Source: a virus
Strand: one strand, 5' to 3'
DNA: 22,689 nt
IMG/VR virus record: IMGVR_UViG_3300034120_001721
Location: 1-22,689 of that record
A model generated the notes under the pieces. It had not been told where the DNA came from. It did not search any database and saw only the letters and a program-made list of their open reading frames with translations. Both the position numbers and the translations under genes were made by a program. Of this stretch, positions 1 to 22,304 are shown piece after piece. Each line of letters opens with the position of its first letter. The first letter of the stretch is position 1.

Positions 1-687
1 TGGGCAGGTCGTCAACACGCCCTGCTCACGTGGACCAGCGCCATGGACTGCTGGTCCTGGTCCCTCCCAGCCGGCAAGTCCGGCTCGTGCCCGATGGAGA
101 ACCGCGACACCGGTTCCATCTGCAACTCCTGCTATGCCCAGCAGGGAACCTACCTGTTCAGCACCACCCGCCATGCCCAGCGTGCACGGTTCGAGTTCCT
201 CAAGTCCGACCCGGACCGCGTGCTCAACCTCATCACCACCTACATCAACGACAACCAACTCCCCTACTTCCGCGTCCATGACAGCGGTGACTTCCACTCC
301 CTCGCCATGATCTGGCGATGGTCCGACGCCGTCCGCCGTTCCCCGTCCACCCGCTTCTGGTTCCCCACCCGAGCATGGACATTCCCCCACTGGATCCCTG
401 CCCTGTCCGCCCTGGCCGCCGAGCCCAACGTCTCGGTCCGCCCCTCCGCCCAGAAGTTCGACGAGCCCCCGCCATACATCCGCGGTCTGCACCCCGGCAC
501 CATGTCCACCTCGGTCGAGACCGACTGGGCACTGACCTGCCCCAAGACCGCCAACCATTCCTCATGCGGCAAGGAGAACTGTCGCACCTGCTGGTCCACC
601 ACCGAGCCCGTCAACTACCTCAGCCACGGCCACGTCCTCACCGCCAAGGAACGACTCACCCACCTCTCCATCGGAGCAACCTCATGA
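1..687 (+). CDS. gp88-like phage protein, 5' end outside window
   Basis: The reading frame is open to the first base, and the residues before the first Met (ending TWTSA) look like coding sequence, so the gene probably begins upstream of the window. Visible features are a Cys-rich N-terminal part (SGSCPM, then CNSCYAQQG), a central RVHDSGDFHS stretch, a Trp-rich region, and a C-terminal Cys cluster (CPKT...CGKENCRTCW) that looks metal-binding. This pattern resembles the actinophage gene product 88 family, whose biochemical role is not established to my knowledge. Its stop overlaps the next start as ATGA, so it heads or sits within an operon of small phage genes. The family call comes from remembered motifs, not from a search. 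Confidence 0.68.
   Translation, partial: WAGRQHALLTWTSAMDCWSWSLPAGKSGSCPMENRDTGSICNSCYAQQGTYLFSTTRHAQRARFEFLKSDPDRVLNLITTYINDNQLPYFRVHDSGDFHSLAMIWRWSDAVRRSPSTRFWFPTRAWTFPHWIPALSALAAEPNVSVRPSAQKFDEPPPYIRGLHPGTMSTSVETDWALTCPKTANHSSCGKENCRTCWSTTEPVNYLSHGHVLTAKERLTHLSIGATS
384..392 (+). repeat. dispersed motif CCCCCACTG, copy 1
   Basis: TCCCCCACTGGATC in the gp88-like gene (coding FPHWIP). Confidence 0.75.
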
Positions 688-1001
688 CCGAGTACGACAG
701 CATCCCCTACGCCACCCGTCAGTCCCTCGTCCGCTACCTCCGGGACGGCATCGACCCCGGCTCGTTCCTCTACGCCGTCCTCACCAACAACCTCGCCGAT
801 GCCGTCGGCCGTGCCGACAAGGAGAACCTCCCCGCCCTCAAGACCATCGTCATGTTCCTCCGCAACCGCGTCCCCTCCCTCTGCCACGGCAGCGTCTCGG
901 ACTACCGACGGTGGACCCGTGACCCTGAACTCCGGGCCGAGTGCATGTCCTACCCCGAGGGCATCAAGGCCCTCGACATCCTGAACGGAACCTTCCAATG
1001 A
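684..1001 (+). CDS. small conserved phage protein, 105 aa
   Basis: The start is the ATG in the ATGA overlap with the preceding gene; longer upstream extension in this frame lies wholly inside that gene. The protein reads MTEYDSIPYATR..., followed by GIDPGSFLYAVLTNNLADAVGRAD and a C-terminal YRRW. This layout (an IDPGSFL turn, then a helix with NNLADAVGRAD) resembles a short protein common in many unrelated phage genomes, in which related copies read GIPPGxFLxAVL and GRAD. No function is known to me. It is soluble with no signal peptide or membrane segment. Confidence 0.72.
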   Translation: MTEYDSIPYATRQSLVRYLRDGIDPGSFLYAVLTNNLADAVGRADKENLPALKTIVMFLRNRVPSLCHGSVSDYRRWTRDPELRAECMSYPEGIKALDILNGTFQ

Positions 1002-1243
1002 CAGAACGCAACGACATCGACTCCCTCGACTTCCGTATCTTCCAGACCCAGCACACCCTGAACGACGCCAACGCCGCCCTCGTGGAGGCCGAGGCCACCA
1101 TCCGGGAACTCACCGCCGAACGCGACGCAGCCCGTCGCCTCTACTGCCAGACCCTCTGGGAATACCAGAACTTCCGCCGTACCCGCAAACACGCCGCACC
1201 CGAGGCGATCGCCGTCGCCCACAACTGGGACTGCTACGCATGA
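998..1243 (+). CDS. small coiled-coil protein, 81 aa
   Basis: The start is the ATG of the ATGA overlap with the gene before, and the stop forms another ATGA overlap with the gene after. The middle of the protein (about residues 20-50) is charged and heptad-like, consistent with a coiled coil, and contains ERDAARRLYC. The same ERDAARR(L/M)YC motif recurs in the 58-aa protein encoded at 2229-2405, so the two are probably related. No function is recognised. Confidence 0.68.
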   Translation: MTERNDIDSLDFRIFQTQHTLNDANAALVEAEATIRELTAERDAARRLYCQTLWEYQNFRRTRKHAAPEAIAVAHNWDCYA

Positions 1244-2177: not shown

Positions 2178-2187
2178 CTCTCACCGA

Positions 2188-2214: not shown

Positions 2215-2216
2215 TA

Positions 2217-2225
2217 CCCCCACTG
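2217..2225 (+). repeat. dispersed motif, copy 2 (intergenic)
   Basis: ACCCCCACTGAAC ends just before ATG 2229 and follows the terminator hairpin at 2188. Confidence 0.8.
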
Positions 2226-2228
2226 AAC

Positions 2229-2713: not shown

Positions 2714-3375
2714 TGAACCTCCCCGTCTTCCCCTCCCGCCCATCGTGCCGCACCTGCGCCCGGTGGGAACAGGCACCCGTGAACCCCGGCGTCCCCACCA
2801 TCCAGTGGGGGTTGCCGGGACCCGGGCACCCCGTCCTCGTCGTCGTCGGCGTGACCCCCAAGTTCTTCGACCACCAGCACAACGAACCCTTCCGAGGCAA
2901 GCCCGGAGACCTGGTCCGCTCCGTGTACCTTGCCAACCTATCCAACCTGTGTACTATCTACCTCACGCTTCTCGTCCGTTGCGGTCCTGACCTGCCCGCC
3001 AAGGCCGCCGACTTCAAATCCTGCTTCGCCCACCACCTCGACGACCTGCACCAAATCCTCGCTGCCCACCCCGACGACCCCGTCCACATCCTCTTGCTCG
3101 GTGCGCCCGCAACCACCCACTTCCACCGGCATCACCTCGGCATCCGCCTCACCCAGAAGGACGGCTTCTCGCAGAACGGGAAGCAACGGATCATCCAGTC
3201 CCGTCCCGTCTCCGTCTTCTCCACGTTCCACCCCGGCGACGTGCTCCGCAGCAACTCCCTCATCCACCCGGTCGAGGACCACATGACCCTCCTCGAATCC
3301 CACGTCAAGAACGAACGCCGTGCCGCCACCGACCCCGACATCCAGCCGCCCCGATCCCCGCACAATCTCCCTTGA
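2713..3375 (+). CDS. uracil-DNA glycosylase superfamily protein (family 4-like)
   Basis: The ATG at 2713 overlaps the preceding stop. The 220-aa product carries features of the iron-sulfur (family 4/5-type) uracil-DNA glycosylases: a CxxC pair (C12, C15), a second pair (C90 in LLVRCGP and C104 in FKSCF) at the usual spacing, a glycine-rich segment (VVVGVTPKFFD...EPFRGKPGD, residues 43-66), and a late FHPGDVLR motif (H173-P174) matching the conserved HP active-site loop. The first motif is degenerate: family 4 enzymes read GExPGxxED...PFVG, and the Glu after the first Gly is Val here. It may therefore be an altered-specificity or non-catalytic homologue. It overlaps the polymerase gene by 56 nt, suggesting a shared replication or repair role. 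Confidence 0.72.
   Translation: MNLPVFPSRPSCRTCARWEQAPVNPGVPTIQWGLPGPGHPVLVVVGVTPKFFDHQHNEPFRGKPGDLVRSVYLANLSNLCTIYLTLLVRCGPDLPAKAADFKSCFAHHLDDLHQILAAHPDDPVHILLLGAPATTHFHRHHLGIRLTQKDGFSQNGKQRIIQSRPVSVFSTFHPGDVLRSNSLIHPVEDHMTLLESHVKNERRAATDPDIQPPRSPHNLP
2803..2811 (-). repeat. dispersed motif, copy 3
   Basis: Minus-strand ACCCCCACTGGAT in the glycosylase gene (coding IQWGL on plus). Confidence 0.75.
2926..2958 (+). promoter_or_regulatory. weak sigma70-like promoter candidate
   Basis: Within the glycosylase gene, TTGCCA and TACTAT are separated by 16 nt in an AT-richer patch. A TACTnTATCT-type sequence recurs near 6059. This is a consensus resemblance only; nothing else supports transcription starting here. 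Confidence 0.22.
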
Positions 3376-5344
3376 CATCGAGACCTATGGCATCACCCGA
3401 TTCACAACCTCCGGCCGACTCCTCCCTGACCAGACCGTGTTTCACCCTGCCCGCTCCGTGTCCGTGGACGGATGCCCCCTCCGCGAATTGGTACAGACCG
3501 TTTCCGTCACCGTTGCCCATCATGATGGTGACTTGGCCGACCTCGTGCCCGGTCCCACCTTCGTCTTCCAACTCCACAACCCCGCCCATCGAAGGCACCT
3601 CGCCCGCTGGCTCGCCCACGCACACACCATCCTCGGGATGAACCTCCAGTTCGACCTGCTCTACCTCCGCTCGCAACCCGAGTTCCGCTTCCACCTCTCC
3701 CGCCAAATCCTGATAGACCTGTCCGTCCTCAACTACCTGCACTCCGAGCTCCGACCCGAACGCTCCCTCAAAGCCCTCGGTCCCGTGCTCGGCACCCACT
3801 GCTACACCACCGAGCAACTCTCACGCGACCGCCGTTACCACGACGCCCGCTCCCCCGAGCTGCACCGATACAACGCAGCCGACACCCACAACACCATGCT
3901 CGCATGCGTCGAGCTGGCCAGGAGGATCCGCCATGACTACCCCGACACCGACAAGCTCAGTCCCGAATGCCTCACCCACTACTCCGACACCATCTGGACA
4001 GTGGTTCGCATGTCCGAATCCGGAGTGCCTATGGACAGAGCGGGCCTATCCAGCCTCGAACAATCCGTGCTGTCCCGCATGCGGGACGCCGAAGCGACGG
4101 CTGCCTCCCTCAACCTCGTACTCACCGGGCCAGGAAGTGCGAAGTCGAAACTCACCCTGATGCAGGAAGCCTGCACCTGGATCGAGAACAACCACGACCC
4201 TTCGATCCGCTCTCATCCCCTGTTCCAGCTCACGCCCGCCAAGAAGGAGATCGCGGTCAACGACGTGAACCGCCAGCTCTTCCTCTCCTTTCCGACCCCC
4301 ACTGATCTCGCCGACAAGCTCCGCCTGCTCGGTACCTACTCCTCCCTCCAGAAGCTCCTCTCCTCCTACCTCTACCCGCTCCTCCGCCACCAGCGGATGG
4401 ACCCCACCAACAAATCCTCGTGCCTCGTGCCTCGACCCAACGGCATCGGCATCTCGTACCCCACCTGGTACGTCACGCCTACCGCCTCGAAGGACGGGGC
4501 CGGATCCGAAGGCGGCACCCTTCAGGGCCGCATCACCTGCAAGAACTTCCGGCACCAGACAGACCCCGACGAGATCAAGGCCCTCTACAAATCCCGGTGG
4601 TCCTCCGGGCATATCGTGGGCTACGACCTGTCGCAGATCGAGATGGTCGTCGCCGGTCTCCTCTCAGGTGACGAGGCCCTGTGCTCGGCCTTCCTCGCTG
4701 AACCCCCACTGGATCTGCATACCGGGCGTGCCACCCAGGTCTTCGGCGAGGACATCATCAAGGACCCCGACTTCAAGAAGGTCTACCGACAGGCGGCCAA
4801 GGGTGCCAACTTCGGTGACCTGTTCCGTGCAGGTGCCCCCACCCTACAGACCCAGGTGTTCCAGATGACCGGGGTCGTGGTGCCCATGAAGATCTGCGAG
4901 AACATCGTGAAGACCCGGGCTTCCACCCGGCCGGGCCTCTGGTCCTGGCAGGAGAACCTGATCCGCGAGACCCGTGCCCGCGGCTACGTCGCCCTTCCGT
5001 TCGTCGGCCAGTCCCGTCGCTTCATGGGCGGTGACGCATACGACGTATCGGAAATCGTGAACATGCCCATCCAATGCACGGCAGGCAACGTGCTGCTCCG
5101 CATCCAGCACCGCCTCCACCACACGCTTCCCGACCTCAACGATCGGGCACCGGACATCCTCATGTTCCTCAACGTGTACGACGCCGTGTACTTCGACGTG
5201 CGTACCGACGCCGCACTTGACCGGCTGGACACCCTGTTCCGTGACGCCTTCAACTACGTGACAACCCAGGGGTATTGGGCTAGACTCTGCGAACGTACGG
5301 GACGAAGGATCCCGATCCGATACGAACGCACGATCTACTCATGA
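3320..5344 (+). CDS. polA: DNA polymerase I family (family A) with 3'-5' exonuclease
   Basis: This is the replicative polymerase candidate (674 aa). The DEDDy-type proofreading exonuclease is visible: Exo I as D19-I-E21 (SLDIETYG), Exo II as N108...D112 (MNLQFDLLYL), Exo III as Y184-x3-D188 (YNAAD). The polymerase domain has motif A (YDLSQIE, catalytic D436), motif B (R490QAAKGANFGD, with K494 and F498), and motif C (NVYDAVYFD, catalytic D621). Motif C is unusual: the common His-Asp-Glu is Tyr-Asp-Ala here. A GTG start at 3320 is chosen because no later ATG or GTG precedes the exonuclease Asp; this makes a 56-nt overlap with the glycosylase gene. There is no 5' nuclease domain, as is usual in phage family A enzymes. 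Confidence 0.93.
   Translation: MPPPTPTSSRPDPRTISLDIETYGITRFTTSGRLLPDQTVFHPARSVSVDGCPLRELVQTVSVTVAHHDGDLADLVPGPTFVFQLHNPAHRRHLARWLAHAHTILGMNLQFDLLYLRSQPEFRFHLSRQILIDLSVLNYLHSELRPERSLKALGPVLGTHCYTTEQLSRDRRYHDARSPELHRYNAADTHNTMLACVELARRIRHDYPDTDKLSPECLTHYSDTIWTVVRMSESGVPMDRAGLSSLEQSVLSRMRDAEATAASLNLVLTGPGSAKSKLTLMQEACTWIENNHDPSIRSHPLFQLTPAKKEIAVNDVNRQLFLSFPTPTDLADKLRLLGTYSSLQKLLSSYLYPLLRHQRMDPTNKSSCLVPRPNGIGISYPTWYVTPTASKDGAGSEGGTLQGRITCKNFRHQTDPDEIKALYKSRWSSGHIVGYDLSQIEMVVAGLLSGDEALCSAFLAEPPLDLHTGRATQVFGEDIIKDPDFKKVYRQAAKGANFGDLFRAGAPTLQTQVFQMTGVVVPMKICENIVKTRASTRPGLWSWQENLIRETRARGYVALPFVGQSRRFMGGDAYDVSEIVNMPIQCTAGNVLLRIQHRLHHTLPDLNDRAPDILMFLNVYDAVYFDVRTDAALDRLDTLFRDAFNYVTTQGYWARLCERTGRRIPIRYERTIYS
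4296..4304 (+). repeat. dispersed motif, copy 4
   Basis: ACCCCCACTGATC in the polymerase gene (coding TPTDL). Confidence 0.8.
4703..4711 (+). repeat. dispersed motif, copy 5
   Basis: ACCCCCACTGGATC in the polymerase gene (coding EPPLDL), a different phase from copy 4. Confidence 0.75.
5258..5286 (+). promoter_or_regulatory. candidate promoter upstream of HTH gene
   Basis: GTGACA and TAGACT are separated by exactly 17 nt, about 55 nt before the start at 5341. The -10-like part continues as CTGCGAA, which closely matches TACACTCTGTGAA at about 8077-8089 inside the sigma-like gene. Suggestive only. Confidence 0.33.
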
Positions 5345-5637
5345 CCCTCCAATCCAACCACCGCAAGGTCGTCGCCCTCCTCAACCGGGGCGAGAACGCC
5401 GCCGCCGTGGCCGAACAGGTCGGCCTCTCCCGCAAGCGGGTCTTCGACTTGGCCCGCCGACACAACGCCCCGACCAACCCCCTGGTCAAGCCGGGCGGCC
5501 GCATCGAGAAGCAAATCGTCCGCTCTTCCCGGGTCCTCACGATCCCGGAGATCTCGGTCGCCTTCCGGCTGGCCGAATGCCGGATCAAGGAGATCCTCTC
5601 CCGGGTGGACCGGGAGACCAAGGCCGCCCTCCGGTGA
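5341..5637 (+). CDS. helix-turn-helix DNA-binding protein, 98 aa
   Basis: The start ATG overlaps the polymerase stop as ATGA. Residues about 18-41 (GENAAAVAEQVGLSRKRVFD and following) form a clear helix-turn-helix with the AxxVGLSRKRV turn typical of resolvase-like or MarR/LuxR-like HTH units. A second, weaker HTH-like stretch follows (residues about 66-88, LTIPEISVAFRLAECRIKEI). The protein is basic and has no other domain, so it is probably a phage regulator or a DNA-binding accessory of replication. It is one of two small HTH proteins in the window that could recognise the dispersed CCCCCACTG motif, though that is only a guess. Confidence 0.72.
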   Translation: MTLQSNHRKVVALLNRGENAAAVAEQVGLSRKRVFDLARRHNAPTNPLVKPGGRIEKQIVRSSRVLTIPEISVAFRLAECRIKEILSRVDRETKAALR

Positions 5638-6182
5638 ACCGGTCCTGGACGGTCTTCCAGGACGACCGCGAGAAGACCCCCCTCCTGTTCCCCGCCAACA
5701 TGGTGATGCTGGACGACGCCCACCCCCCGGTGGACCGCCGGTCCTGCACCGTCTCCCTCACCGTCGTAAAGAAACGCCTGCCCACCGGCGACTACGCCCT
5801 GAAGGACTTCGAGTCCCGGGTCCTGATCGAGCGGAAGAAACACCTGCCCGAGCTCTTCTCGAACCTGCTCACCCCCTCGGGACGGCAGCGGTTCGTGGCC
5901 GCATGCGACCGGCTGCGATCCGAATGCTCGCATCCGATACTCATCCTCGAAGGAACGATTGGCCACCTCGTCCGGACCGCCCGTCCCACCCTGGACGTGG
6001 ACCCCTGGCTGGTGGTCGATGCGCTCCATCGCATCTGCCTCGAACGAAGAATCCAGGTACTCTATCTACCGTCCGCTACCCCCGAACAACGCAGATCAGT
6101 GGGGGAAGAAGTCGCAAGGCTGATGATCAACGGAGCCCTGACCCATGCCGAACCTCCCCCTCCAGACATTCCGTGCGGTTGA
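5634..6182 (+). CDS. ERCC4-type nuclease domain protein
   Basis: A GTG start at 5634 is chosen because it overlaps the upstream stop as GTGA, the overlap style of this operon, and puts the nuclease strand at the N-terminus. The 182-aa product matches the ERCC4 (XPF/Mus81-type) nuclease core: DDREK near residue 11, LPTGDYAL (G52-D53) and IERKKHLPEL (E66-R67-K68) matching the GDx(n)ERKxxxD signature, then RQRFVAACDRL and a buried strand PILILEG. No HhH2 domain is visible, so it is a stand-alone domain like those found in several phages. It would be expected to cut branched or flapped DNA during replication or recombination. It overlaps the next gene by 38 nt. Confidence 0.78.
   Translation: MNRSWTVFQDDREKTPLLFPANMVMLDDAHPPVDRRSCTVSLTVVKKRLPTGDYALKDFESRVLIERKKHLPELFSNLLTPSGRQRFVAACDRLRSECSHPILILEGTIGHLVRTARPTLDVDPWLVVDALHRICLERRIQVLYLPSATPEQRRSVGEEVARLMINGALTHAEPPPPDIPCG
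6097..6105 (-). repeat. dispersed motif, copy 6
   Basis: Minus-strand TCCCCCACTGATC in the ERCC4-type gene (coding RSVGE on plus). Confidence 0.8.
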
Positions 6183-7695: not shown

Positions 7696-7780
7696 CGGCG
7701 AGTGGGTCCTCTCCCCCGATCGCGTAGCCCTGCCCGAAGGCTGGTACCTGGTGCCCCCCAGTTTTGTGGGGGGGAAATGA
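7556..7780 (+). CDS. small lipoprotein, o-spanin-like, 74 aa
   Basis: The start ATG at 7556 has AAGG (7543-7546) about 9 nt upstream. The product opens with a classic lipoprotein signal: MRTW, a hydrophobic core (TLIACAVLALAS) and TSGC as a lipobox-like site, predicting a lipid-anchored Cys near residue 20. The mature part (RVYTRIDGEWVLSPDRVALP, EGWYLVPPSF) is short and Pro-containing. Small lipoproteins that overlap another lysis gene in a different frame are the hallmark of outer-membrane spanins (Rz1-like), although here the overlapping partner at 7471-7695 is not itself an obvious i-spanin; the coiled-coil protein at 7006-7275 is the better partner. The same frame stays open upstream to a GTG at 7466, but that start would bury the signal sequence and is rejected. 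Confidence 0.6.
   Translation: MRTWTLIACAVLALASTSGCGRTVLVEEGSPMRTGPQACIRVYTRIDGEWVLSPDRVALPEGWYLVPPSFVGGK
7754..7773 (+). promoter_or_regulatory. perfect hairpin over lipoprotein stop / next gene leader
   Basis: CCCCCCA (7754-7760) pairs perfectly with TGGGGGG (7767-7773) around the 6-nt loop GTTTTG. No T-tract follows on the plus strand, so it is not a standard terminator. The right arm is the G-run nearest to the start at 7788, so the hairpin could hide the ribosome site of the sigma-like gene or block 3' exonucleases. Confidence 0.42.
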
Positions 7781-7787
7781 CGGTGCC

Positions 7788-8330
7788 ATGCTCAACCGGA
7801 GCAAGGATGCCCGGGACCACGTCGGCTTCCTGACTCTCTGGGCCACCGACGCACACAAGAAGAAGCGATTCCCCCACTGGGATCGCGACGAGATCCTGTC
7901 GGAGGCATACGTCCAGGCCCACCGCCTCCTGTCCACGATCTACAACCCCCACAAATCCACGGTCGTCACCTTCCTGAAGGGCTTCCTCTGGGGTGCCGTC
8001 CACTACAGCTACTGGACTTCCCGTGGTTACCGGTTCACCGACGCCGGGCCCCGCTTGAAGATCGTGGTTACAGACGATACACTCTGTGAAGAGGTAGCCG
8101 TCGAGCTGCCTCATGACCCTCTCGATCTTCCGCCCCTCACCGAAGAGGAGTGGACGATCATCCGCCTGCGAATGGATGGGTACACCATGACCCGAATCGC
8201 CGGTGTCCTCGGACTGAAGTCCCCGCAGTCCGTGTACAACCGCCTCGTCAAGATCAGGGACAAGTTCAAAGGAAACAGCGATGCCCCCAGAAATCCAACC
8301 GACCCCTCTCCCCAAGGACCGGGCCCGTAG
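7788..8330 (+). CDS. sigma factor-like transcription protein, 180 aa
   Basis: The ATG at 7788 is chosen; a TTG at 7764 in the same frame would start inside the G-rich hairpin. Residues about 30-72 (HWDRDEILSEAYVQAHRLL, then NPHKSTVVTFLKGFLWGAV) follow the pattern of sigma70 region 2, in which a DEIxSEAY helix precedes a FxPxxGxFxTWL-like helix. Residues about 117-160 (LTEEEWTIIRLRMDGYTMTR, IAGVLGLKSPQSVYNRL) form a region-4-like helix-turn-helix. The spacer between them is charged and variable. The Pro-rich tail overlaps the RecB-like gene by 50 nt. It would be expected to direct host RNA polymerase to phage promoters or act as a related regulator. The call is by pattern, not by search, and a plain HTH regulator is the main alternative. 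Confidence 0.62.
   Translation: MLNRSKDARDHVGFLTLWATDAHKKKRFPHWDRDEILSEAYVQAHRLLSTIYNPHKSTVVTFLKGFLWGAVHYSYWTSRGYRFTDAGPRLKIVVTDDTLCEEVAVELPHDPLDLPPLTEEEWTIIRLRMDGYTMTRIAGVLGLKSPQSVYNRLVKIRDKFKGNSDAPRNPTDPSPQGPGP
7871..7879 (+). repeat. dispersed motif, copy 7
   Basis: TCCCCCACTGGGATC in the sigma-like gene (coding FPHWD). Confidence 0.75.
8055..8083 (+). promoter_or_regulatory. weak promoter-like sequence inside sigma-like gene
   Basis: TTGAAG and TACACT are 17 nt apart; the -10-like part continues CTGTGAA, paralleling TAGACTCTGCGAA at 5281. It lies about 200 nt before the RecB-like gene. Low confidence. Confidence 0.22.
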
Positions 8331-9708
8331 CGCCCGGCAGTTCCTGGAGACCGAAGGCCTTGTGCCCCGTGTCCCCTCGATCCGCTCGTCCGACTACTCG
8401 TCCGCCCTGTCCGACCCCTTCTCCTACTACCTTCGCCGCCGCCTCGGCCTGACCCAGGCACTCCAATACTCAGAGGCCCTGTCCCGCGGCTCCTACTTCC
8501 ACGTCCTGTTCGCCCTCTACGACCGCGACGACCGCTGGCAGATCTTCCGCCGGATGTGCAAGACCCGGCTTGACGAGATCAACAAGCTGTGCAAGGACCT
8601 CCGCCTCTCGGAGGATGCCCGCGTCACCTCCGTGCAGAACGAGCAGATCGACCAGGCTTTCGCCACCGCCTGGTACGCCGCGTTCACCGACCTGCCCTGC
8701 ATCTCGAACGCGCCCGCGGCCGCGCACCTCACGAAGAACTACCTCAAGCTCGGGGCCGAGGTCCGGCTCACGTGGGTGGACGAGCGGTTCCCCAAGACCA
8801 GGCAGGTCGCCCAGTTCGACCTGCTCCTGCTCGACCGCCGCACCAACAAGGTGTGGATCGCGGACGCGAAGACGACCTCGCTACCCCCACTGATCCGCCT
8901 GTCCACCGTGCGTGAGGAGTTCCAGACGATGCACTACATGCACTGCCTGGAATGGTTCCTGTCCCGCGGCCTGCTCCACGAGCGGTACCCCATGCTGCCC
9001 AAGGACGCCGAGCTCGGGGGCATGATGCACATGGCCATCCTCAAGCCGTCGATCCAGTTCGGCATGCAGGACCGGCCGTTCACCTGGGAGTCCGAGGGCA
9101 AGCGGACCGGCGTCTCGGGCCGCATCATGCGGACCCCGGTCAACCTCCATGACAAGGGCACGCACGTCATCCAGTGGACGGCCAAGCCGCCCTACGCCGA
9201 GCCGTTCTGCGGCACGATGGACGAGTGCCTGGCCGAGCTGCACGCCCGCACGGGCAAGACCCCGGAGAAGAAGTTCACCGGCGAGCCCTCGATCGAGGCC
9301 TACACCCAGCGGTGCATGCGGTGGTACAAGGGACAGGGTGAGTACCTTGACAAGGCCCCCGACTTCGTCAATGATCCACCCATCAACATTTCCTACACCC
9401 ACGCCTCCACCATGCTTGACAAGGACTGGAGGGCAGACTACCTTTCCCGTGTTGCCATGATCTACAACTTGGCAACCATCGAGGCAAACCCATGCAACTT
9501 CCTGCGGAACATCGACTCGCTGAGGATGGGCGCGAACCTGAATCCCTTCAGTCCGTTCTACCTGACGGAGCCGAAGGACTGGCCGGGCCTGGTGGCAAGC
9601 CAGCAGTTCCTGGTCGCACACCGGGACGCGGGCGATCTTCCGGCCGAGCCCGAGCCGCACGAGTTCGACGGCCTGATCGAGAGCCTCGAACCCGAACCCC
9701 TCACGTGA
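8281..9708 (+). CDS. RecB/Cas4-like PD-(D/E)XK nuclease, 475 aa
   Basis: The product has the RecB-type nuclease layout. An N-terminal SxYxxALSDPFSYYLRRRLG region precedes LSRGSYFHVLFAL, with H74 matching the conserved His of RecB/Cas4 enzymes. The core has E160 (LGAEVRLTW), then D180 in QFDLLLLD and D195-A-K197 (VWIADAKTTS), which form the D...(D/E)xK metal site. Later stretches (MHYMHCLEWFLSR, GMMHMAILKP) resemble the QxxxY-type helix and following strand. Such phage enzymes usually act as 5'-3' exonucleases that make 3' ssDNA for annealing. The downstream Sak4-like ATPase and probable ssDNA-binding protein fit that pathway. The start ATG at 8281 overlaps the sigma-like gene by 50 nt. Confidence 0.8.
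   Translation: MPPEIQPTPLPKDRARSARQFLETEGLVPRVPSIRSSDYSSALSDPFSYYLRRRLGLTQALQYSEALSRGSYFHVLFALYDRDDRWQIFRRMCKTRLDEINKLCKDLRLSEDARVTSVQNEQIDQAFATAWYAAFTDLPCISNAPAAAHLTKNYLKLGAEVRLTWVDERFPKTRQVAQFDLLLLDRRTNKVWIADAKTTSLPPLIRLSTVREEFQTMHYMHCLEWFLSRGLLHERYPMLPKDAELGGMMHMAILKPSIQFGMQDRPFTWESEGKRTGVSGRIMRTPVNLHDKGTHVIQWTAKPPYAEPFCGTMDECLAELHARTGKTPEKKFTGEPSIEAYTQRCMRWYKGQGEYLDKAPDFVNDPPINISYTHASTMLDKDWRADYLSRVAMIYNLATIEANPCNFLRNIDSLRMGANLNPFSPFYLTEPKDWPGLVASQQFLVAHRDAGDLPAEPEPHEFDGLIESLEPEPLT
8884..8892 (+). repeat. dispersed motif, copy 8
   Basis: ACCCCCACTGATC in the RecB-like gene (coding LPPLI), right after the DAKTTS active-site strand. Confidence 0.8.
9415..9443 (+). promoter_or_regulatory. 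TTGACA-containing promoter candidate
   Basis: A perfect TTGACA is followed after 17 nt by TACCTT. It lies in the end of the nuclease gene, about 265 nt before the HTH gene at 9708. The -10 match is poor, so confidence is low. Confidence 0.2.
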
Positions 9709-10050: not shown

Positions 10051-10950
10051 ATGACAGTCACCACGCACGCGGGGAAGCTTCCCCAACACCGCTATGCGGG
10101 ACTCGGGTTCACCGGTGTCCGCATGGTCCACCCGCCCGAACGCCTGTTCGGCCTGATCTGCGGCCTGCCCGGCGAGGGCAAGAGCCAGTTCATCCACTCG
10201 CACCCGGACTCGTGGGTGTGCAACATGGACTGCACCTCCTCGCTCGGGGATCCCCGGGCCACCATCTGGCCGGGCATCAACGACCAGGGCCAGCCCATCG
10301 ACGTGGACGGACAGCCCCTCGTCATGACCTGGGAGGCCGTCACCGCCAAGATCCAGCTGCTCTGCGACCTGGCCAAGACCAACCAGCCCAGGCCCGCCAC
10401 TGTCTTCTTCGACTCGCTCGGCACGTGGATCCCCCTACTCAAGGACTGGATCACCCGATCGAACGACAAGAAGGACTGGCGGGACATGGACGGCCGCCGC
10501 TCGTGGGACCAGCTCTACGACATGGTGATCGACACGTGCCTCACCCTCCGCCGCTACGGCTACGGGGTCTACGTGATCTGCCACGTCGTCAACGCCAAGA
10601 TCCCGCTGGGCGATGACCGCTACGTCTTCAAGCCCGAGCTCACCATCACCGACGGTTTCTACAAGCGGCTCTATCCGCTGTTCGAGATCGTCGCCGCCAT
10701 CTCCACCGAGTGGGTCACGGAGCAGCGGGAAGTGCAGCAGCCGCCCATCATCAAGGACGGCAAGACCGTGACCCTCAAGCCCAAGATCGTGACGGAGAAG
10801 CGGAAGAAGTACCTGTTCTCGGTGGACTCGGAGTCACTCTCCGGCATCACCAAGCACCGCGTCAAGATGGCTTCCGAGTTCGAGCTCCCCGAGCACGGGG
10901 GCTGGTCCGAGTTCACCCGTCAGTACCACGCCAATTCGACCGGCGCGTAA
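10051..10950 (+). CDS. Sak4/RecA-like recombination ATPase, 299 aa
   Basis: A P-loop is clear at residues 38-45 (GLPGEGKS, Lys44), preceded by a hydrophobic strand (RLFGLIC). Walker B is TVFFDSLGTW (D121), and VYVICHVVNAKIP around residue 175 resembles the sensor strand of RecA-fold ATPases. The architecture and length match phage Sak4-type (AAA_24) single-strand annealing ATPases, which act with an ssDNA-binding protein in phage recombination. The neighbours (RecB-like nuclease upstream, probable ssDNA-binding protein downstream) match this module. A DnaB-like helicase is less likely because no N-terminal domain is present. The start ATG at 10051 follows the previous stop by one base. Confidence 0.8.
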   Translation: MTVTTHAGKLPQHRYAGLGFTGVRMVHPPERLFGLICGLPGEGKSQFIHSHPDSWVCNMDCTSSLGDPRATIWPGINDQGQPIDVDGQPLVMTWEAVTAKIQLLCDLAKTNQPRPATVFFDSLGTWIPLLKDWITRSNDKKDWRDMDGRRSWDQLYDMVIDTCLTLRRYGYGVYVICHVVNAKIPLGDDRYVFKPELTITDGFYKRLYPLFEIVAAISTEWVTEQREVQQPPIIKDGKTVTLKPKIVTEKRKKYLFSVDSESLSGITKHRVKMASEFELPEHGGWSEFTRQYHANSTGA

Positions 10951-10990: not shown

Positions 10991-11557
10991 ATGTCGAACG
11001 CCAAGATCAGCGCCATCTTCGCCTCCCAGAAGAAGACCTTCGGGGACGCCCAGCCGGACACCGGTGTGGGCGGCCTCGGCGAGTGGCCCGCGGAAGGAGA
11101 GCACGACTGCTACGTGCTCGGCCTCGAAGTCAACGAGAAGGCCACCTACCGCTTCAACACCGACCAGGGCCAGCAGGTCGAGCTCCCGGCCACCGAGTTC
11201 CGGTTCCGGTACCAGCTCCTCAACGACGAGACCAACCCCGACAACCCGCTCGTCTGGGGCGGAGCCCCGTTCACCTTCCCGGAGAACGCCGCTGCCGTCA
11301 CCGCCGATGGCCGTCGGACCGGTCTCCAGATCGAGCGGAACCGTTTCTGCGGTCACCTCTCTACCCTGCTTGGAAGCAAGGTCGGAACCGCCGATGGTCT
11401 CGACGTGGCCGATGCCGTCGGCAAGGCCATTGACATCCTCGGATCCAACAAGCAGATTGTCGCGACCGTCCGTTGCCAGTACCGTAAGGGCAAGGGCAAC
11501 GCCGCGAGCAAGGTCTACAAGACCGAGTTCCTGAACAAGCTGCTGTCCGAGGCCTGA
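10991..11557 (+). CDS. probable ssDNA-binding protein (recombination partner), 188 aa
   Basis: The ATG at 10991 follows a good ribosome site (AGGAGAA at about 10977). The N-terminal part begins MSNAKISAIFASQKKTFGDA, followed by a beta-rich core (EGEHDCYVLGLEVNEKATYR, ELPATEFRFRYQLLNDE) and a second strand region (QIVATVRCQYRKGKGNA, KVYKTEFLNKLL). This resembles the phage DUF669-like or OB-fold ssDNA-binding proteins that usually sit next to annealing ATPases. No aromatic/acidic C-terminal tail typical of bacterial SSB is visible. The functional call rests mainly on context and strand pattern. It probably ends a transcription unit, given the hairpin downstream. Confidence 0.62.
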   Translation: MSNAKISAIFASQKKTFGDAQPDTGVGGLGEWPAEGEHDCYVLGLEVNEKATYRFNTDQGQQVELPATEFRFRYQLLNDETNPDNPLVWGGAPFTFPENAAAVTADGRRTGLQIERNRFCGHLSTLLGSKVGTADGLDVADAVGKAIDILGSNKQIVATVRCQYRKGKGNAASKVYKTEFLNKLLSEA

Positions 11558-11564: not shown

Positions 11565-11573
11565 CCCCCACTG
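11565..11573 (+). repeat. dispersed motif, copy 9 (intergenic)
   Basis: ACCCCCACTGATC ends exactly where the hairpin at 11577 begins. Confidence 0.85.
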
Positions 11574-11647: not shown

Positions 11648-12247
11648 ATGCAGGCCCTGCCTCTCAGAGGAACGGCGATAACCGCTGTCGCTCGCCGAAA
11701 GCCGCGTATGGATCGGGAAACTGAGCCCGTGGCCCCCTACCTGGAGTACCCCACAGCCGTGCGACACCTCGACCAGGTGATCACGCCCCGGCTATGGAAG
11801 ATGCCCGTACCCCTCAGGGTGAAGCATTCCGGTTTCAAGAACCTGGGGTTGACCGCTCTCCTCCCCCAGCCCCAAGAACCCGGAGTCTTCACCCTGAAGG
11901 CACGGGGCTTCCCCTCAATCCTGACCTTCCCAGGGTCCCGGCACTGGCTCGTCATGACGCTGGCCCTGCCGGGCGGTGCAACCCCCACTGATCCGTTTGC
12001 AGGAGAACCTCCATACCTCAGGGTGGACGGCGCTGAATGCAAGGGCCTGCTGACTTCCTCCTCGGCAGGCCGGATCCACATGGGGTTCATCGACCTCCCA
12101 CGGGGTACCCTGTCTGACATGGCGACCAGGGTCCTGGACCGTGAGCCCGAATCCAGGATCCTGGTCCGCCTGCTCCCCCGATTCACCACCGGGGCCGTAC
12201 GCTGGTTCCGTGACCTGAGCTGCGTCCAGTTCTGGTCCGCCCTCTAG
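11648..12247 (+). CDS. hypothetical protein, 199 aa, last plus-strand gene
   Basis: The start at 11648 has a G-rich ribosome site about 10 nt ahead; an ATG at 11708 (MDRETEPVAPYLEYPTAV) is an alternative start. The product is mixed alpha/beta by eye, with hydrophobic strands (GFPSILTFPGSRHWLVMTLA, ESRILVRLLP) and many Arg, Pro and Trp residues. No motif or family is recognised. The high GC at third codon positions supports coding. Its TAG stop shares the palindromic CTAG with the stop of the large minus-strand gene, so the two units meet end to end with no spacer. It may be a late-acquired gene at the boundary of the modules. Confidence 0.58.
   Translation: MQALPLRGTAITAVARRKPRMDRETEPVAPYLEYPTAVRHLDQVITPRLWKMPVPLRVKHSGFKNLGLTALLPQPQEPGVFTLKARGFPSILTFPGSRHWLVMTLALPGGATPTDPFAGEPPYLRVDGAECKGLLTSSSAGRIHMGFIDLPRGTLSDMATRVLDREPESRILVRLLPRFTTGAVRWFRDLSCVQFWSAL
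11982..11990 (+). repeat. dispersed motif, copy 10
   Basis: ACCCCCACTGATC in the 199-aa gene (coding TPTDP). Confidence 0.8.
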
Positions 12248-15200
12248 AACCCCTTGAACGCCTCGAAGCCGCCCTGCTTCCCTGCGTCGGCCTGGGCGGC
12301 CATCTGGGCCATGACCTGCTGCTGCTCGGGAGACAGTGGGGGTACCTCAAGCTTCCTCGCCTGGGCCCTCTGCCGGGCCGTATCCGCACCCGTGATCGCC
12401 TCAGCCTCCAGCCCCAGCTGGGGAGCCCGGCCCGCCGCCATCTGCTGGAACTGGCCCCGCTGGTCCGGGGGCATGCGGTCAAGAATCCGCTCGGTCCGAC
12501 TGACCGTCCGGTTCTGGATGGCCTGGTCGAGCTGGTCCTTGCTGATCGTCAGGTCCATGCCGTACCGCTTCTTGAACTCGGCCCGGATCGACTGCATCTT
12601 CCCGATCTCGTTGGCCAGCAGGGCGGAGATCGCCTTCCGCCGGTACTCCAGGATCTGGTCCCGGTTCTTGATGAGGAACCCGTCGAAGTCCGCCGTCTCC
12701 TTGAATTGGCCCATGTCCACGCCGAGCTGCTTGGCGAAGATCATGCCCGGGCTCTGGTAGTCGATCAGCGTGCCGTCCCCCTTGAAGACGGCGACGTACC
12801 CCTCGGGCGTCCGCTGCTTGAAGTCCACGTACGTCTTCTGGAGGGCGCCCGGCAACCCGAACAGCGGGGAGTTCGGCATGTCCGGGGCCAGGCCCATGGC
12901 CCGGCTCAGGGCGACGCCGCCGGGGATCAGGCGGGGGATGTTGTTCTGAAGGAGCTCCCGCTGCCCGGGATCCAGGGCACCCCGCACGATGTTGACCGGG
13001 ATGTCGATGACCGGCGGGATTGGGACGTACTCGTTCCCGGCCTGGAAGAACCGGTCCCCGCCGAACGCCTGCGTCAGGCTCGCCCCGTACAGGCCTGGGC
13101 TCAGGTCGATCCCGAAGGTGTTCTTGCCCACCTCGTAGAAGATCGCGCTGATGCCCATGCCCCGGATGAAGTCCTGGCCCACGCCCTTGAAGAACCCACG
13201 CTCCCCCATCCGGGCGGCCTCGTAGCTCAGGCTCGTGACGGACCGGGTCGGGAAGCTGAGGAACTGGCGGAACAGCGGGTTGTTCCCCACCCGGCCGAAC
13301 GGGCCTTGGCCCTGGAACGCCATCGGGGTGTTCAGCGTGTTGCCGCCGAACTGCGTCGAACCCACGAAGTCGTCCACGTCCCGCAACATCCGGTAGAACC
13401 CAGGGGTCCCGGCCCCGATGTTGATGCCCTTGCTCTTGTACAGGTTCTCCACCGTGTGCGCTGCCACGCTGCGGTTGAGCCACTCCGCCTTCTCGAACAG
13501 CTTCATCGGGTAGTCGTAGAAGTACGACTCCTTGCGGCCCACCCCGGTCAGCAAGTCGTTCTTGTACGAGATCGTGTCCAGCGTCGAGAACGTATCGCGC
13601 CCGATCTGGATCAGGTTCTCCCCATCCACGTCGGCGTACTTGAAGTGCTTCTTGATGAGGGCCGCGTGGTCCTCGTCCGTCAACGCCTTGAACCCGTACT
13701 TCCCCACCCGCTCCGAGATGTACCCGCCGAGCTCCTTGAACGCCGACGTGTACGCCTTCAGCACGTTCGGCAACCCGCCGTAGTTGGCGGCCACCAGCAG
13801 CGGCTGCATCATGTTCATCGTCACGCTGGCCAGGTTGATGCCGAGGTGCGTGACGTAGAAGTACCGGGCCAGCTCGCCGCTCATTCCCTTCGCCTCGCCG
13901 AACGTCAGCTCCGCATTGGCCACGTCGTCGAGCCGCTTGTACAGCCCCTGTCCCCAGGTGCCAGCACCCCTCATCGCCTGCCCGATCCCGGAATCCAGCA
14001 GCGTCCTGATCCCCTGCTTCCCCTTGATCAGGGCCATGTGGGTGGCGGCGTGCTCGATCTTCTCCAGTCCCGCCGACTGCCGGAGCACCACCTCCAGGGC
14101 CTCCTTCGCGTACCGGTCCTCCAGCAGGTAGTGCTCGCTCTGGAAGAACCTGGCAAGACTCGTCTTGTCCGACATGAACGGACTGCGGACCATGCCCCGT
14201 GCCAGGTCCGCCGCCTTCTCCGGCTTCACCAGGGCTCGGGTGTCCGCGATCGCCTGCTTCAGCTTCGGCAGTTCCTCCACCGTCTGCACGTATAGGGCAT
14301 GCGTCACCCCGGTGTCCCGGAAGTACCTGCTCCACGCCTCCTGCTGGTTCATCCGGTTGGTGCGGGCCACGCCCCCCTGGTCGAGGATCGCCCGGATCCT
14401 GTTCCTGGTCCCGTTCAGCAGCGTGTACCCGTCCTCCGTGCCGCCGAACCTGCGGAGCACATCCTCCAGGTCATCGGGATCCCACACCCCGTTCACGCTC
14501 TTGCGGCTCACCACCGACTTCGTGGCCACCAGTCCCCGGCTCCGCCGCTGCTCCATCACATCCGTGATCGTCCCCGCCCCCTTCATGTCCCACACGTTCC
14601 GCGGCATGTAGTGCTCGGGGAACGCCTCGATCATCCCCTTCAGCATCCCCTTCACCTGGGCCGGGTCGATCTTCCCGCTCGCGATGAGCTTCGCCGACTG
14701 CGGATCCACGAGCATGCTCATGATTCCCTCGGCCGTGCCCTTGAAGGCACCGTCCTTCTGGAACCCGAACTGTGCCCCCTCCAGCGCCCGCAACAACTTG
14801 TTCTCATCCGCCACGAACCGACCCTGTCGGGCCGACTCGGCGGCGTCCCCGAACATCCGCATCTTCCGCTGCTTCTCCGCCGTCCGGTACGCATTCCGCA
14901 GTTCCGTCAGCCCGAGCCGCTCGACCACCTGGTCCATGTCCGAAGACACAAGCCGCTTCGTCACCCGGTCATCCAGGTAGAACTCGAACCTGCCCCGCTC
15001 CTTGAACGCCCTGCTCCTCGTGCTCCCCCGGTACGGCTGCCCGTCCAGCACCTTCCTCCGCCTGAGCACCTTGTCCGCCACCTCCCGGTCGAAACCCCGC
15101 AGCGACGCCTCCAGCGCCCGGCTCAACTCCAGGGCCCGTGCCTTCTTCGTGGCGTCCGTGATCCGCTCGAAGTTCAGCGTCTCCAGCCCCTCCCTCTCCA

Positions 15201-16701: not shown

Positions 16702-17072
16702 CGGCCCACCTCGATGAACTGGTAATCCGGGTTCAGGGCCGCCAGTTTCTCGGCCACCTCCCGCTCCGCCATGGTCGCCAACCCGACCATGCTCACGTCA
16801 TCCTCCTCCACGTACCGGGTCCACACGAACGTCCGGTCCTTCCGCCTGATGCTGGGGTCCTTGGCCTGGGTCCGTTCCCACAGGAACTTCCGCACGTCCG
16901 CCTTGGCCCGCAGCTCCTTCCCCTTCCGCACGATCGGTTCCCTGGTCAGGTTGACGAGAACCCCCACTGGTCCGGAATCAGTGGGGGTCAGCTTCACCAG
17001 CGAGTAGCCACGGTTGTTGTGGCTCTCGACGACCCGGTGCGAGATCTTCTTCACGTCTTCGAGCTGGATCAT
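16698..17072 (-). CDS. hypothetical protein, 124 aa, in virion operon
   Basis: The start overlaps the stop of the 773-aa gene as TGATG. The product is a compact alpha/beta protein (YSLVKLTPTDSGPVGVLVNL, RKFLWERTQAKDP, TFVWTRYVEEDD). No motif is recognised. Unusually, the gene contains two copies of the dispersed CCCCCACTG motif in opposite orientations, 9 nt apart, forming a perfect inverted repeat. Confidence 0.62.
   Translation of the reverse strand: MIQLEDVKKISHRVVESHNNRGYSLVKLTPTDSGPVGVLVNLTREPIVRKGKELRAKADVRKFLWERTQAKDPSIRRKDRTFVWTRYVEEDDVSMVGLATMAEREVAEKLAALNPDYQFIEVGR
16961..16969 (+). repeat. dispersed motif, copy 12 (inverted pair)
   Basis: ACCCCCACTGGTC in the 124-aa gene, antisense to coding (PVGVL); pairs with the copy at 16979. 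Confidence 0.85.
16979..16987 (-). repeat. dispersed motif, copy 13 (inverted pair)
   Basis: Minus-strand ACCCCCACTGATTC (coding LTPTDS); the inverse of the copy 9 nt away. Confidence 0.85.
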
Positions 17073-19393: not shown

Positions 19394-19395
19394 GG

Positions 19396-21048
19396 TCAGC
19401 CTCCGAGTTCACCGGCCAGTTGGCCGAGGATGTCCAGTTCGCTTTGGGCTCCGCCGAGCTCAGCCTGCTGCATGTACTCCTGGAGGGCCAACTGCTCCTC
19501 CTCCGTCATCGCTCCCGCCTGAGCCCCGAGCTGGCCGGACTGGGCCCGGAGTCCCTCGATCATCCGCAAGATCTCGTCCGGGTTCAGCTGTTGCAGCCGT
19601 GGATCAGCTTCCGTAAGAAGCCTGACCAGTTCCAGCCTCTCGGTCTCGGGCATGCCGAACTTCTGGGTTTCCGTCAGCAGCTTCTGCATCTCTGGTGAAT
19701 CCTGCGACAGGGCGTACGCGGCCCGGGCCCGACGGTACATGGCACTCGTGTCGTACTCCGTCAAGTCCACCAGCGGACCCTGCGTCATCACGGTCGGATC
19801 CTTGGCCACGTCCTGCAACACGTCTGCAATCCCACCCACCCCCGTCAACGTCTCCTCCAGAACCTGGCTCATCGCACCCTCCGCCCCGGTCCCGCCCATC
19901 CGGCCCACCAGTTCAGCGCTGTTCTCGCTCAGCCCCTCAAGGTTCTTGATGAACGCCATGACCTGTTCCGAACCCATCCCGTAACTCATCAGGTTCTGGA
20001 GCTCGGTCGCGATCTGCTCCCGTGCCGCCTTGGTCTGCTCGGGATTCAAACCCCCACTGATCTCCGATCCCGGACGCAAGACGCTGGCGGCAGAGATGGC
20101 CTTGAGCATGGAGGTCTTGGCCGCATCCTTCATGCCGTCCTTCAGGCCCAGGCCGTCACCGTGCTTGGTGAATGTGTTCTCGACCACGGTGCCCGCCAGG
20201 AAAGTCGGGCTCTTGTTCTCAAAGGTCATGCGTTCCCGGTACCAATCGGGATTGCTGTACCCGAACACCGACTCCGACAGGTTCTGCATCATGATTTTCA
20301 GGGCCGGAAGAGCACTGGCTCCCGCCATGGGATTGCCGACGAGCCCATCGTCCAAGGCCACTCTTCCCGCCTCCTGCCAATATCCGGACTGACGGGTGAT
20401 CCCCAGAATCGTGTCGTTGAGACCGCGATTGAAAGAGTCGTTAGTATTGTCCCTTCTCGTCTCCGCGGCCCGCTTGACCGCATCAATGTGGGACTGGACC
20501 TCGTCGAGGCGACCCGTCTTCACGTCCTGGGCCACGGACAGCGAAGCCATGCCCGAGTTCATGGCCATCTCCACGCTGCGGGCCTGGGCCTCTTTAGCAC
20601 GACGCTGTTCCCGCAGGGCCTTCAGCTCCGGGCTGTTGCGGGCCTGACCCACGATCTGGGCCCGGATCTTCCGACCCTCGGCCTCGATCTCCTGCAAGCG
20701 GATCGCGAACTTGCTCTGCATCATCTTCAGTTCCCGCTCCTGGGCCTGGCCCCGGGAGAACTGGGATTCCTGCTGGGCCATCTCCTGCTGGGCCAACCGC
20801 TCCCGGCTCGCGTTCAGCTGGGCGTAGTCCGCCGACTGCGCGGCCTGGGCCTGCTGCTGCATCTGAGCCTGGGCCGCCAGCTCGGTCTGCTGCATCTGGG
20901 CCCGGTTGGCCTCGCTCGCTGCCTGCTGCTGCAACGCCTGGCCTTGCAACCCGGCCTGGGCCTTGACGTTCCAGTTCTGGGTCGCCTGACCCATGTTGTT
21001 CACGCCGAGCGCGATGCTCTCAAGGAACGGGTCACTCATCTGGCTCAC
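19396..21048 (-). CDS. internal virion protein-like, coiled coil, 550 aa
   Basis: The start overlaps the 419-aa gene stop as ATGA. The N-terminal third is Gln/Ala-rich and coiled-coil-like (about 25-175, for example QAGLQGQALQQQAASEANRA and LAQQEMAQQESQFSRG). The middle is a less repetitive helical part that includes GYSNPDWYRERMTFENKSPT. The C-terminus is acidic and Gln-rich (QLALQEYMQQAELGG). There are no signal peptide, membrane helix or enzyme motifs. The order and composition agree with an internal virion or portal-associated protein made in the same operon as its neighbours. No family is recognised. Confidence 0.64.
   Translation of the reverse strand: MSQMSDPFLESIALGVNNMGQATQNWNVKAQAGLQGQALQQQAASEANRAQMQQTELAAQAQMQQQAQAAQSADYAQLNASRERLAQQEMAQQESQFSRGQAQERELKMMQSKFAIRLQEIEAEGRKIRAQIVGQARNSPELKALREQRRAKEAQARSVEMAMNSGMASLSVAQDVKTGRLDEVQSHIDAVKRAAETRRDNTNDSFNRGLNDTILGITRQSGYWQEAGRVALDDGLVGNPMAGASALPALKIMMQNLSESVFGYSNPDWYRERMTFENKSPTFLAGTVVENTFTKHGDGLGLKDGMKDAAKTSMLKAISAASVLRPGSEISGGLNPEQTKAAREQIATELQNLMSYGMGSEQVMAFIKNLEGLSENSAELVGRMGGTGAEGAMSQVLEETLTGVGGIADVLQDVAKDPTVMTQGPLVDLTEYDTSAMYRRARAAYALSQDSPEMQKLLTETQKFGMPETERLELVRLLTEADPRLQQLNPDEILRMIEGLRAQSGQLGAQAGAMTEEEQLALQEYMQQAELGGAQSELDILGQLAGELGG
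20051..20059 (+). repeat. dispersed motif, copy 14
   Basis: ACCCCCACTGATC, antisense in the 550-aa gene (coding ISGGLNP). Confidence 0.8.
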
Positions 21049-22304
21049 GAGCCACCTCCGAAGTTAGGCGGCTGCACGAACTGCATTCCCGGCGTGGTCA
21101 TCGCCGCGATGTATCCGGTCAATGCCGCGAACATGCTCGTCACGCCTCGCTTGTTCCCCTGCACCATTGCGTACATGTCCTTGTACCCGTTGGTCAGGAG
21201 GTTCACGGCCTGCAACTGGCTGGCCGCCGAGAGCTGCTCCATCGTCGTGTTCAGGTTCGCCGACAGCTCCATCATCGAGGCCCGCTGACGGGACGCATCA
21301 ATCGTCTGGGCCCCGAACGCCGTGCCCACCTGTCCCCGCAGCTGCCCACCGGCCAGCGCCGTCTGAGACTGTGCGTTCATCAGCGACGACAGGTTGCCCT
21401 TCATCTGGGCCATCGTGTCGTTCAGGCCCGTGTAGATCTGGTTGACGCCCTGGCTCACCTGCTGGGCCGTCTCGGCCTGCATCGTCTGCTGCATGGCCGC
21501 ACGCTCCGCCGGACTCATCAGCGACCCGTCCGGATTGCGGCCCATCTCGATCGTCCGCATCTGGTTCTGAACCTGCCGCTCCAGACCCACCCGGAGATCC
21601 GCCGCCTGCTGGGCACTGCGGTCCTGGTACTCCCCGATCGCCTTCTCGTAATTGGCCCGGGCTTCCTGCGCGAACTGGTTAGCCTGCGAGATGTCCTGGT
21701 CCACGCGACCGATCTGCTGGTCACGGAACTGCTTGAACTCGTCGAAGGCCGCCTGGCCCTGCTGCTCTGCCCTCTGGGCCAGGCCCCCCAGGTTCTGCCG
21801 CATCTGGGCATTCTGCCCCTGAATCGCCTGAGCCCCCTGCTGGAACGCCTGCTCGTATCCGCCCATCATCTGGTTGGCCCGGGCGAACTGCTCGTTCATC
21901 ACCCCTTGCTGATTGCCCATGTCCTGGAAGATGGACCCCCCGAGCAAGGTGCTCCACGCCGCATCATTGGCTCGCACCTGATCCCGAACCCCCATGTTCA
22001 TCCCACCCTGCTGGCCCTGTCGCATCATGGACCGGCCAAGGGTCGTCTTGGGATTGAAACCCCCACTGAATCGCTGGTTCTGCTGGGCAGAGGCATTCTG
22101 GCCCTGGGACTGGAGCTGCCGTAGCCGGGTGGCAGGGTCAAAGGAACCGGGCCCAAAGTTCGAGGGACCCCGATTGCGAGAACCTGCTCCCGGGCCGCGA
22201 GGCAGCATGGGCTGGCCGAACGGCGAGAAGTTGGCGACGGGGTCGTAACTGCCCGGGCCGTAATTGCCGAAGTTGGAATGGCCGTAAGGAAGTGGCGTTG
22301 TCAT
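21045..22304 (-). CDS. Gln-rich internal virion protein-like, 419 aa
   Basis: The ATG at 22304 overlaps the upstream stop as TGATG. The N-terminus has two copies of a short repeat (YGPGSYDPVAN at about 15 and FGPGSFDPATR at about 50) in a Gly/Pro/Asn-rich, probably disordered region. The rest is Gln/Ala-rich helix (GYEQAFQQGAQAIQGQNAQM, FRDQQIGRVDQDISQANQF) and ends with a more hydrophobic part (TSMFAALTGYIAAMTTPG) and Gly-rich tail. The layout resembles small internal proteins such as T7 gp14, but no homology was shown. It precedes two larger proteins of similar composition in the T7-like size order (small, medium, large, largest). Confidence 0.62.
   Translation of the reverse strand: MTTPLPYGHSNFGNYGPGSYDPVANFSPFGQPMLPRGPGAGSRNRGPSNFGPGSFDPATRLRQLQSQGQNASAQQNQRFSGGFNPKTTLGRSMMRQGQQGGMNMGVRDQVRANDAAWSTLLGGSIFQDMGNQQGVMNEQFARANQMMGGYEQAFQQGAQAIQGQNAQMRQNLGGLAQRAEQQGQAAFDEFKQFRDQQIGRVDQDISQANQFAQEARANYEKAIGEYQDRSAQQAADLRVGLERQVQNQMRTIEMGRNPDGSLMSPAERAAMQQTMQAETAQQVSQGVNQIYTGLNDTMAQMKGNLSSLMNAQSQTALAGGQLRGQVGTAFGAQTIDASRQRASMMELSANLNTTMEQLSAASQLQAVNLLTNGYKDMYAMVQGNKRGVTSMFAALTGYIAAMTTPGMQFVQPPNFGGGS
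22060..22068 (+). repeat. dispersed motif, copy 15
   Basis: ACCCCCACTGAATC, antisense in the 419-aa gene (coding FSGGFNP, as in copy 14). Confidence 0.8.

Follow-up and report, generated by a model that had tools for sequence, protein, structure and literature searches.

Uptake sequences and KOPS are dispersed chromosomal signals, short and with strict cores, of which KOPS are also polar; neither has a link to a phage family. The Chi sequence of E. coli, which belongs to the host and is enriched in its chromosome, is likewise short, strict, non-palindromic and polar; it is over-represented in lambdoid phages without recombinases, and phages with their own exonuclease and recombinase are expected to avoid it (PMC3784561). 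The stoperators of cluster A mycobacteriophages (L5, Bxb1) form 23-36 asymmetric sites per ~50 kb, are oriented with transcription, mainly intergenic and tolerant of near-misses, and carry a word that differs by subcluster (PMC3029335). The nick motif TACTRTGMC / WACTRTGAC of tf, the LUZ24-like phages and Rembedalsseter is strict, dispersed and located in genes, with a polarity along the genome axis; it is confined to one strand, with 8-14 copies per ~46 kb (PMC3517423, PMC11780129). In tf, the main version of this motif varies among relatives at similar positions (PMC3517423).

The word described here, CCCCCACTG, shared features with each of these systems and departed from each. It resembled the nick motif in strictness, dispersal, location in genes and genome-axis polarity, but it occupied both strands at ~2:1, with 24-35 copies per ~53 kb and with convergent pairs. 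It matched the stoperators in number and in lineage-dependent wording, but none of their three other properties was true in clade I. It was built like Chi, and the phage encodes an AddB/RecB-type nuclease; however, the word was specific to phage clades and was not enriched in the one chromosome examined. The initial annotation had matched the motif to nothing known, and the words were indeed absent from the literature searched.

A sharp 9-mer under DNA-level selection

The window, which is the whole 22,689-bp stretch of a linear IMG/VR virus record (64% G+C, plus strand C-skewed), contained 15 copies of CCCCCACTG when both strands were read, 11 on the plus and 4 on the minus strand, and all of them were found where the initial annotation had placed them (Table 1). 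The annotation had estimated fewer than one copy by chance; Markov models of orders 1-4 gave expectations of 0.20-0.64, and with 0.64 the Poisson probability of at least 15 copies was ~5e-16. In the k-mer comparison with a Markov background that it had called for, CCCCCACTG and its overlap ACCCCCACT were the top two 9-mers of the window (z 33). The reversed control of CCCCCACTG had 0 copies in the window. The motif was considered sharp because three one-mismatch cores, and no more, were present. The preceding base was A in 12 copies and T in 3, as first described. ATC followed 6 of the 15 copies, also as described, but the statement that most others continue as GATC or AATC was loose, the remaining continuations being GAT (3), AAC, GGA, GTC, AAT, ATT and TCT. 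Among 277 distinct sites of the relatives, A preceded the word in 76% and RTY followed weakly, and the extended form was A-CCCCC-ACTG-RTY. As a separate feature, the window contained three copies each of the 12-mer TCCCGCATGCGG and of its reverse complement CCGCATGCGGGA with the strands pooled, within the palindrome TCCCGCATGCGGGA.

Table 1. Positions of the word, of the candidate machinery and of the distinct word of a far relative. Positions refer to the window except for the last two rows, which refer to L295.
Feature	Position	Strand	Remarks
Site 1 (CCCCCACTG)	384..392	+	Turns over among relatives
Site 2	2217..2225	+	Intergenic per the gene list used
Site 3	2803..2811	-	UDG-like gene; absent in close relatives; codon occupied by oppositely oriented CCCCACCAG in clade IV
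Site 4	4296..4304	+	Within PolA gene
Site 5	4703..4711	+	Within PolA gene; synonymous loss in several relatives; turns over
Site 6	6097..6105	-	ERCC4-nuclease gene; in all aligned close relatives; codon occupied by CTAGTGGGG in clade VI
Site 7	7871..7879	+	Turns over among relatives
Site 8	8884..8892	+	PDDEXK nuclease gene; in all aligned close relatives; codon occupied by own variants in clades V and IIb
Site 9	11565..11573	+	Intergenic; in all aligned close relatives
Site 10	11982..11990	+	
Site 11	12334..12342	-	Turns over among relatives
Site 12	16961..16969	+	Plus partner of conserved convergent pair; 9-nt spacer
Site 13	16979..16987	-	Minus partner of the pair; altered in G014, G015 and G025; clade III GAGTGGGGG within 3 bp of the orthologous position
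Site 14	20051..20059	+	
Site 15	22060..22068	+	
ERCC4/XPF-Hef-type nuclease	5577..6182	+	PF02732; Hef nuclease 1j22, E 8e-7; all clades
PDDEXK nuclease, AddB/RecB type	8281..9708	+	phrog_1218 exonuclease; all clades
Sak4-like ssDNA annealing protein	10051..10950	+	phrog_124; all clades
188-aa protein beside Sak4	10991..11557	+	No Pfam match; all clades
AGTCCCATC in L295	7540, 10297, 14644, 17454	+	
AGTCCCATC in L295	958, 4499, 16557	-	

Relatives of the window were collected by a PolA search (26 loci) and a profile search (66 loci). Against 50,697 phage records, the window DNA had no match, PolA gave partial matches alone at 25-33% identity, and a terminase search for cultured relatives found no match. 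The 16 close IMG/VR records (PolA 74-85% identical) contained 320 copies of CCCCCACTG, which was over-represented in each of them, with 24-35 copies per record of about 50-54 kb, and the word was retained in G010, a relative with 50% G+C. The 27 one-mismatch words were not enriched in these 16 records (94 in total versus ~131 expected). In nucleotide alignments at 65-85% identity, 47-77% of the sites were retained exactly, compared with 5-35% of neighbouring control 9-mers, and one-mismatch orthologues made up 2-4% at the sites versus 21-32% at the controls; the pairs in these comparisons are phylogenetically non-independent. Protein-guided mapping of fourfold codons with an invariant amino acid showed that the third base was invariant in 7 of 12 inside the window sites and in 59 of 916 outside (Fisher P 4e-6). 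The sites thus did not drift freely at synonymous positions, and the view of the initial annotation that this is a dispersed DNA-level motif beyond what protein sequence explains was borne out. The signal is almost certainly real and selected, and these results show that CCCCCACTG is a sequence-specific signal under DNA-level selection in an uncultivated family of tailed phages of ~45-55 kb.

Two of the 15 window sites were intergenic, and the sites outside called genes numbered 7 of 32 in G003, 9 of 28 in G009 and 5 of 26 in G025. The sites at 6097, 8884 and 11565 were constant but those at 384, 4703, 7871 and 12334 turned over, so some positions are fixed; away from these, it seems to be site density that is maintained.

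Orientation and spacing of the sites

The early genes are on the plus strand and the late genes on the minus strand, and one strand held ~2/3 of the sites in both blocks; the orientation of the word followed the genome axis (~2:1), not transcription. Where gene calls were coherent in clade I (genomes G003, G009 and G025), sense and antisense copies were mixed, at 10:15, 9:10 and 6:15, respectively. The majority strand carried ~64-75% of the sites in clade I genomes, a fraction resembling the skew of Chi in E. coli. The minority-strand sites had similar flanks, and their retention was equal or better (67% versus 59%). Base composition added little to this polarity: in the clade II record G043 the motif was distributed 16:3 between the strands, though CCCC outside the motif was distributed 211:226. 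In clade III, the bias was absent at the loci near PolA (73:66) and present in the full genome (26:15).

The majority-strand sites were ~2-3 kb apart. For most clade I genomes and for that of clade III, their spacing was more regular than in random placements (CV 0.43-0.62, P 0.000-0.043), with G010 and G029 as the exceptions; in clades II and IV the regularity was weaker or non-significant. Among pairs less than 300 bp apart in clade I, 28 were convergent and 7 divergent, with orthologous pairs counted repeatedly. The convergent pair at 16961/16979, with members 18 bp apart, was present across clade I.

Lineage-specific words and candidate machinery

Each clade carried its own word. The word of clade II was TCCCCCCACT, and those of other clades were GTCCCCCCA, TCCCCCCCAC, CCCCCACTC, CCCCACCAG, TCCCCCACT, CCCCACTA and TTCCCCGCT. 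One-mismatch words in clades II-IV reached 1.6-2.3 times expectation, so these motifs were less sharp than that of clade I. A far relative, L295 (a 58-kb contig with PDDEXK 37% and ERCC4 43% identical), had no C-rich word and contained seven dispersed copies of AGTCCCATC, most of them then reading AGTCCCATCCGATA. In clade V (L187, L209), a second dispersed word, CACCGCAGC, was observed alongside TCCCCCACT, with a strand bias of 15:2 in L187 and L209 together and 12:2 in the full record G040. When clade I sites were mapped through protein alignments, another clade's own word was found within 6 bp of the orthologous codon for 9.6% of the mapped sites versus 0.8% of the controls, mostly in the same relative orientation and at about ten independent positions. 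On trees of 55 loci, the ten word labels required 9 changes for PDDEXK, Sak4 and PolA, which is the minimum, and 10 for ERCC4; a quicker PolA tree required 10, and shuffled labels needed at least 27. The word variants tracked the phage phylogeny, and the signal is very probably specific to phage lineages. Picking the recogniser by tree fit failed, since PolA, PDDEXK and Sak4 were equal and ERCC4 was one change worse. The clade-by-clade words, mostly in one orientation, suggest an undescribed, virus-specific DNA recognition system.

PolA, the ERCC4/Hef-type nuclease, the PDDEXK nuclease, Sak4 and the 188-aa protein beside it were present in all clades, and the UDG-like protein in all genomes tested but one. 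In the PolA proteins of L028 and L029, a serine/threonine-rich insertion of ~90 residues was seen between conserved blocks, which the other aligned sequences lacked. The PDDEXK protein of the relative G009 matched PF12705. The AlphaFold2 model of the PDDEXK protein at 8281-9708 (pLDDT 87.6) was closest among PDB folds to AddB of AddAB, followed by AdnA, RecE and RecB in Foldseek; for AddB (4ceh) the E value was 1.9e-5 with a probability of 1.00 and a query TM-score of 0.27, and the overall TM-scores were low because the nuclease domain alone matches. The invariant residues D180, D195 and K197 conformed to the acid-plus-lysine pattern of the AddB/RecB type, and a PDB sequence search with the PDDEXK profile returned nothing. 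We infer that the PDDEXK nuclease is candidate machinery responding to the motif, with Sak4 as its candidate partner; the product of 10991..11557 might, as a guess, be SSB-like. As possible binders, the initial annotation had named the phage's HTH proteins at 5341 and 9708. This proposal was abandoned: neither was detected anywhere in the clade II and IV genomes, which keep their own dispersed motif, and the tandem-HTH protein beside PolA was gone from that place in both clades. Another 188-aa protein (7764-8330; clades I, II and V) had a weak C-terminal HTH resembling LuxR or sigma region 4 (Pfam E 0.02-0.24); it is possibly a regulator, and the match was too weak for a sigma-factor reading. 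Among the 48 predicted proteins of G009 (L038-L040, 52.8-kb), Pfam and PHROGs searches recognised no primase, helicase, integrase or repressor.

Possible functions of the word

We tentatively propose that the word is a phage-encoded, Chi-like polar signal controlling the phage's own end-processing and recombination machinery, which we regard as quite possible and still less than probable. A phage-encoded factor would recognise the word, and the regulated set would include the universal AddB-like PDDEXK nuclease, Sak4, the neighbouring 188-aa protein and the ERCC4 nuclease. On meeting the word in the right direction, an enzyme resecting an end would halt or switch mode, so that a protected 3' strand is left for annealing and self DNA is spared; host or rival DNA that lacks the word would be degraded. 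Even spacing would let a broken end reach a site soon, and convergent pairs could serve ends coming from either side. This reading is supported by the fold of the universal nuclease, which is that of the AddB/AdnA/RecB nuclease domain, the class regulated by Chi. The over-representation, exact and synonymous conservation, polarity, spacing and clade-tracking variants described above also count for it, as do the strand fraction resembling Chi skew and the unenriched chromosome of the MAG considered below. In addition, since phages that bring their own recombinases should avoid host Chi, a private word is a more attractive idea than one borrowed from the host. Against it, the equal fit of the PolA, PDDEXK and Sak4 trees points to no one recogniser, and the PDDEXK protein is too short to hold the parts of AddAB or RecBCD that unwind DNA as a helicase and read Chi; nor was a helicase recognised in G009. 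The lower sharpness in clades II-IV and the lack of strand bias at the clade III loci near PolA also count against it. Mosaic breakpoints in near-identical genomes (n=34) did not cluster at the sites, which argues against a plain recombination hotspot, and that version was rejected. The Chi-type analogy first drawn survives in the sense of working like Chi, and in that sense only. The fuller form of the proposal, in which a polar, evenly spaced self-word is read by phage end-processing machinery and has diverged jointly with its reader into about ten clade versions, partly at conserved positions, is more doubtful.

Alternatively, the word could be the binding site of a phage protein for replication initiation, packaging or genome organisation. 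The whole-genome polarity, even spacing and convergent pairs suit a unidirectional process or a bridging protein, and the failure to recognise a primase or helicase in G009 also favours this reading; but no such protein with a matching distribution was found, and both orientations occur throughout the genome, and we consider this reading unlikely.

In T5, phiKMV-like and tf/LUZ24-like phages, each copy of a site-specific signal is nicked on one strand by a phage nickase; such a role was judged similarly unlikely here in spite of being the closest anatomical match. The tf word TACTGTGAC is an equally sharp 9-mer (11 exact copies; 6 one-mismatch copies versus 7.2 expected) that lies in genes independently of transcription, with sci13 and sci14 antisense within late genes, and tf likewise has PolA and convergent early and late blocks. 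However, known nick motifs keep to one strand, whereas about one third of the sites here were on the other strand with like flanks and the retention given above, and convergent pairs 18 bp apart were widely conserved. The one-strand nick reading fails a defining test, that all sites be on one strand.

The stoperator analogy, in which a prophage repressor binds dispersed asymmetric sites and silences transcription, is improbable. The number of asymmetric sites at the same genome size is similar, and stoperator variants also co-evolve with lineage (PMC3029335). Nearly all 27 consensus sites of Bxb1 are nevertheless oriented with transcription and its near-misses are enriched 2-4.6 fold, whereas in clade I sense and antisense were mixed, most sites lay in genes and near-misses were not enriched. 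The analogy, raised in the initial annotation, breaks down both in how the sites are oriented to transcription and in where they lie, and G009 has no recognised integrase or repressor.

Accumulation of a host-encoded Chi or KOPS word by the phage was given equally little credence. The word is polar, non-palindromic, dispersed and strict, as this reading expects, and the Chi octamer of E. coli can be read on the reverse strand of the clade IV word CCCCACCAGC. E. coli Chi within that word was rejected: the CCCC prefix was more constant than AGC, and few Chi octamers occurred outside the CCCC-prefixed form. The phages here encode their own exonuclease and Sak4, which also speaks against host Chi. 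Of the 80 loci that carry CCCCCACTG as an inverted pair, those rich in the motif all belonged to this phage family. In the search of genome contigs for a host, terminase found nothing and the PolA profile found one MAG contig. An apparent clade II phage of ~48 kb was observed over three contigs (C72, C7 and C18; L185, L248 and L249) of the 3.6-Mb Myxococcales MAG PCCS01, a possible host lead. Of the 36 copies of TCCCCCCAC in PCCS01, 29 fell on the three contigs that look like phage and 7 in the other ~3.55 Mb, versus 12 reversed controls; provided that the binning is correct, the word is not enriched in the host chromosome, the host assignment here being by binning and the comparison covering one chromosome. 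Finally, chance, base composition or protein coding, for which the high G+C and the C-skew of the plus strand might speak, was refuted by the window count and its P value, the absent reversed control, the relatives including G010 at 50% G+C, and the held synonymous third positions.

The finding adds a dispersed, polar phage signal that is family-wide and lineage-specific and lies outside the stoperators and the one-strand nick motifs, the best known of the phage classes. About ten co-evolved words, together with sequenced candidate proteins, make the recogniser testable through swaps. If the word is Chi-like, it would offer an infecting phage a way of telling self from non-self; the literature searched contained no phage-specific Chi, and to our knowledge no phage-private Chi has been known before. 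Even if the word proves to be a nick or organising signal, it would bear on the long-open purpose of dispersed phage words.
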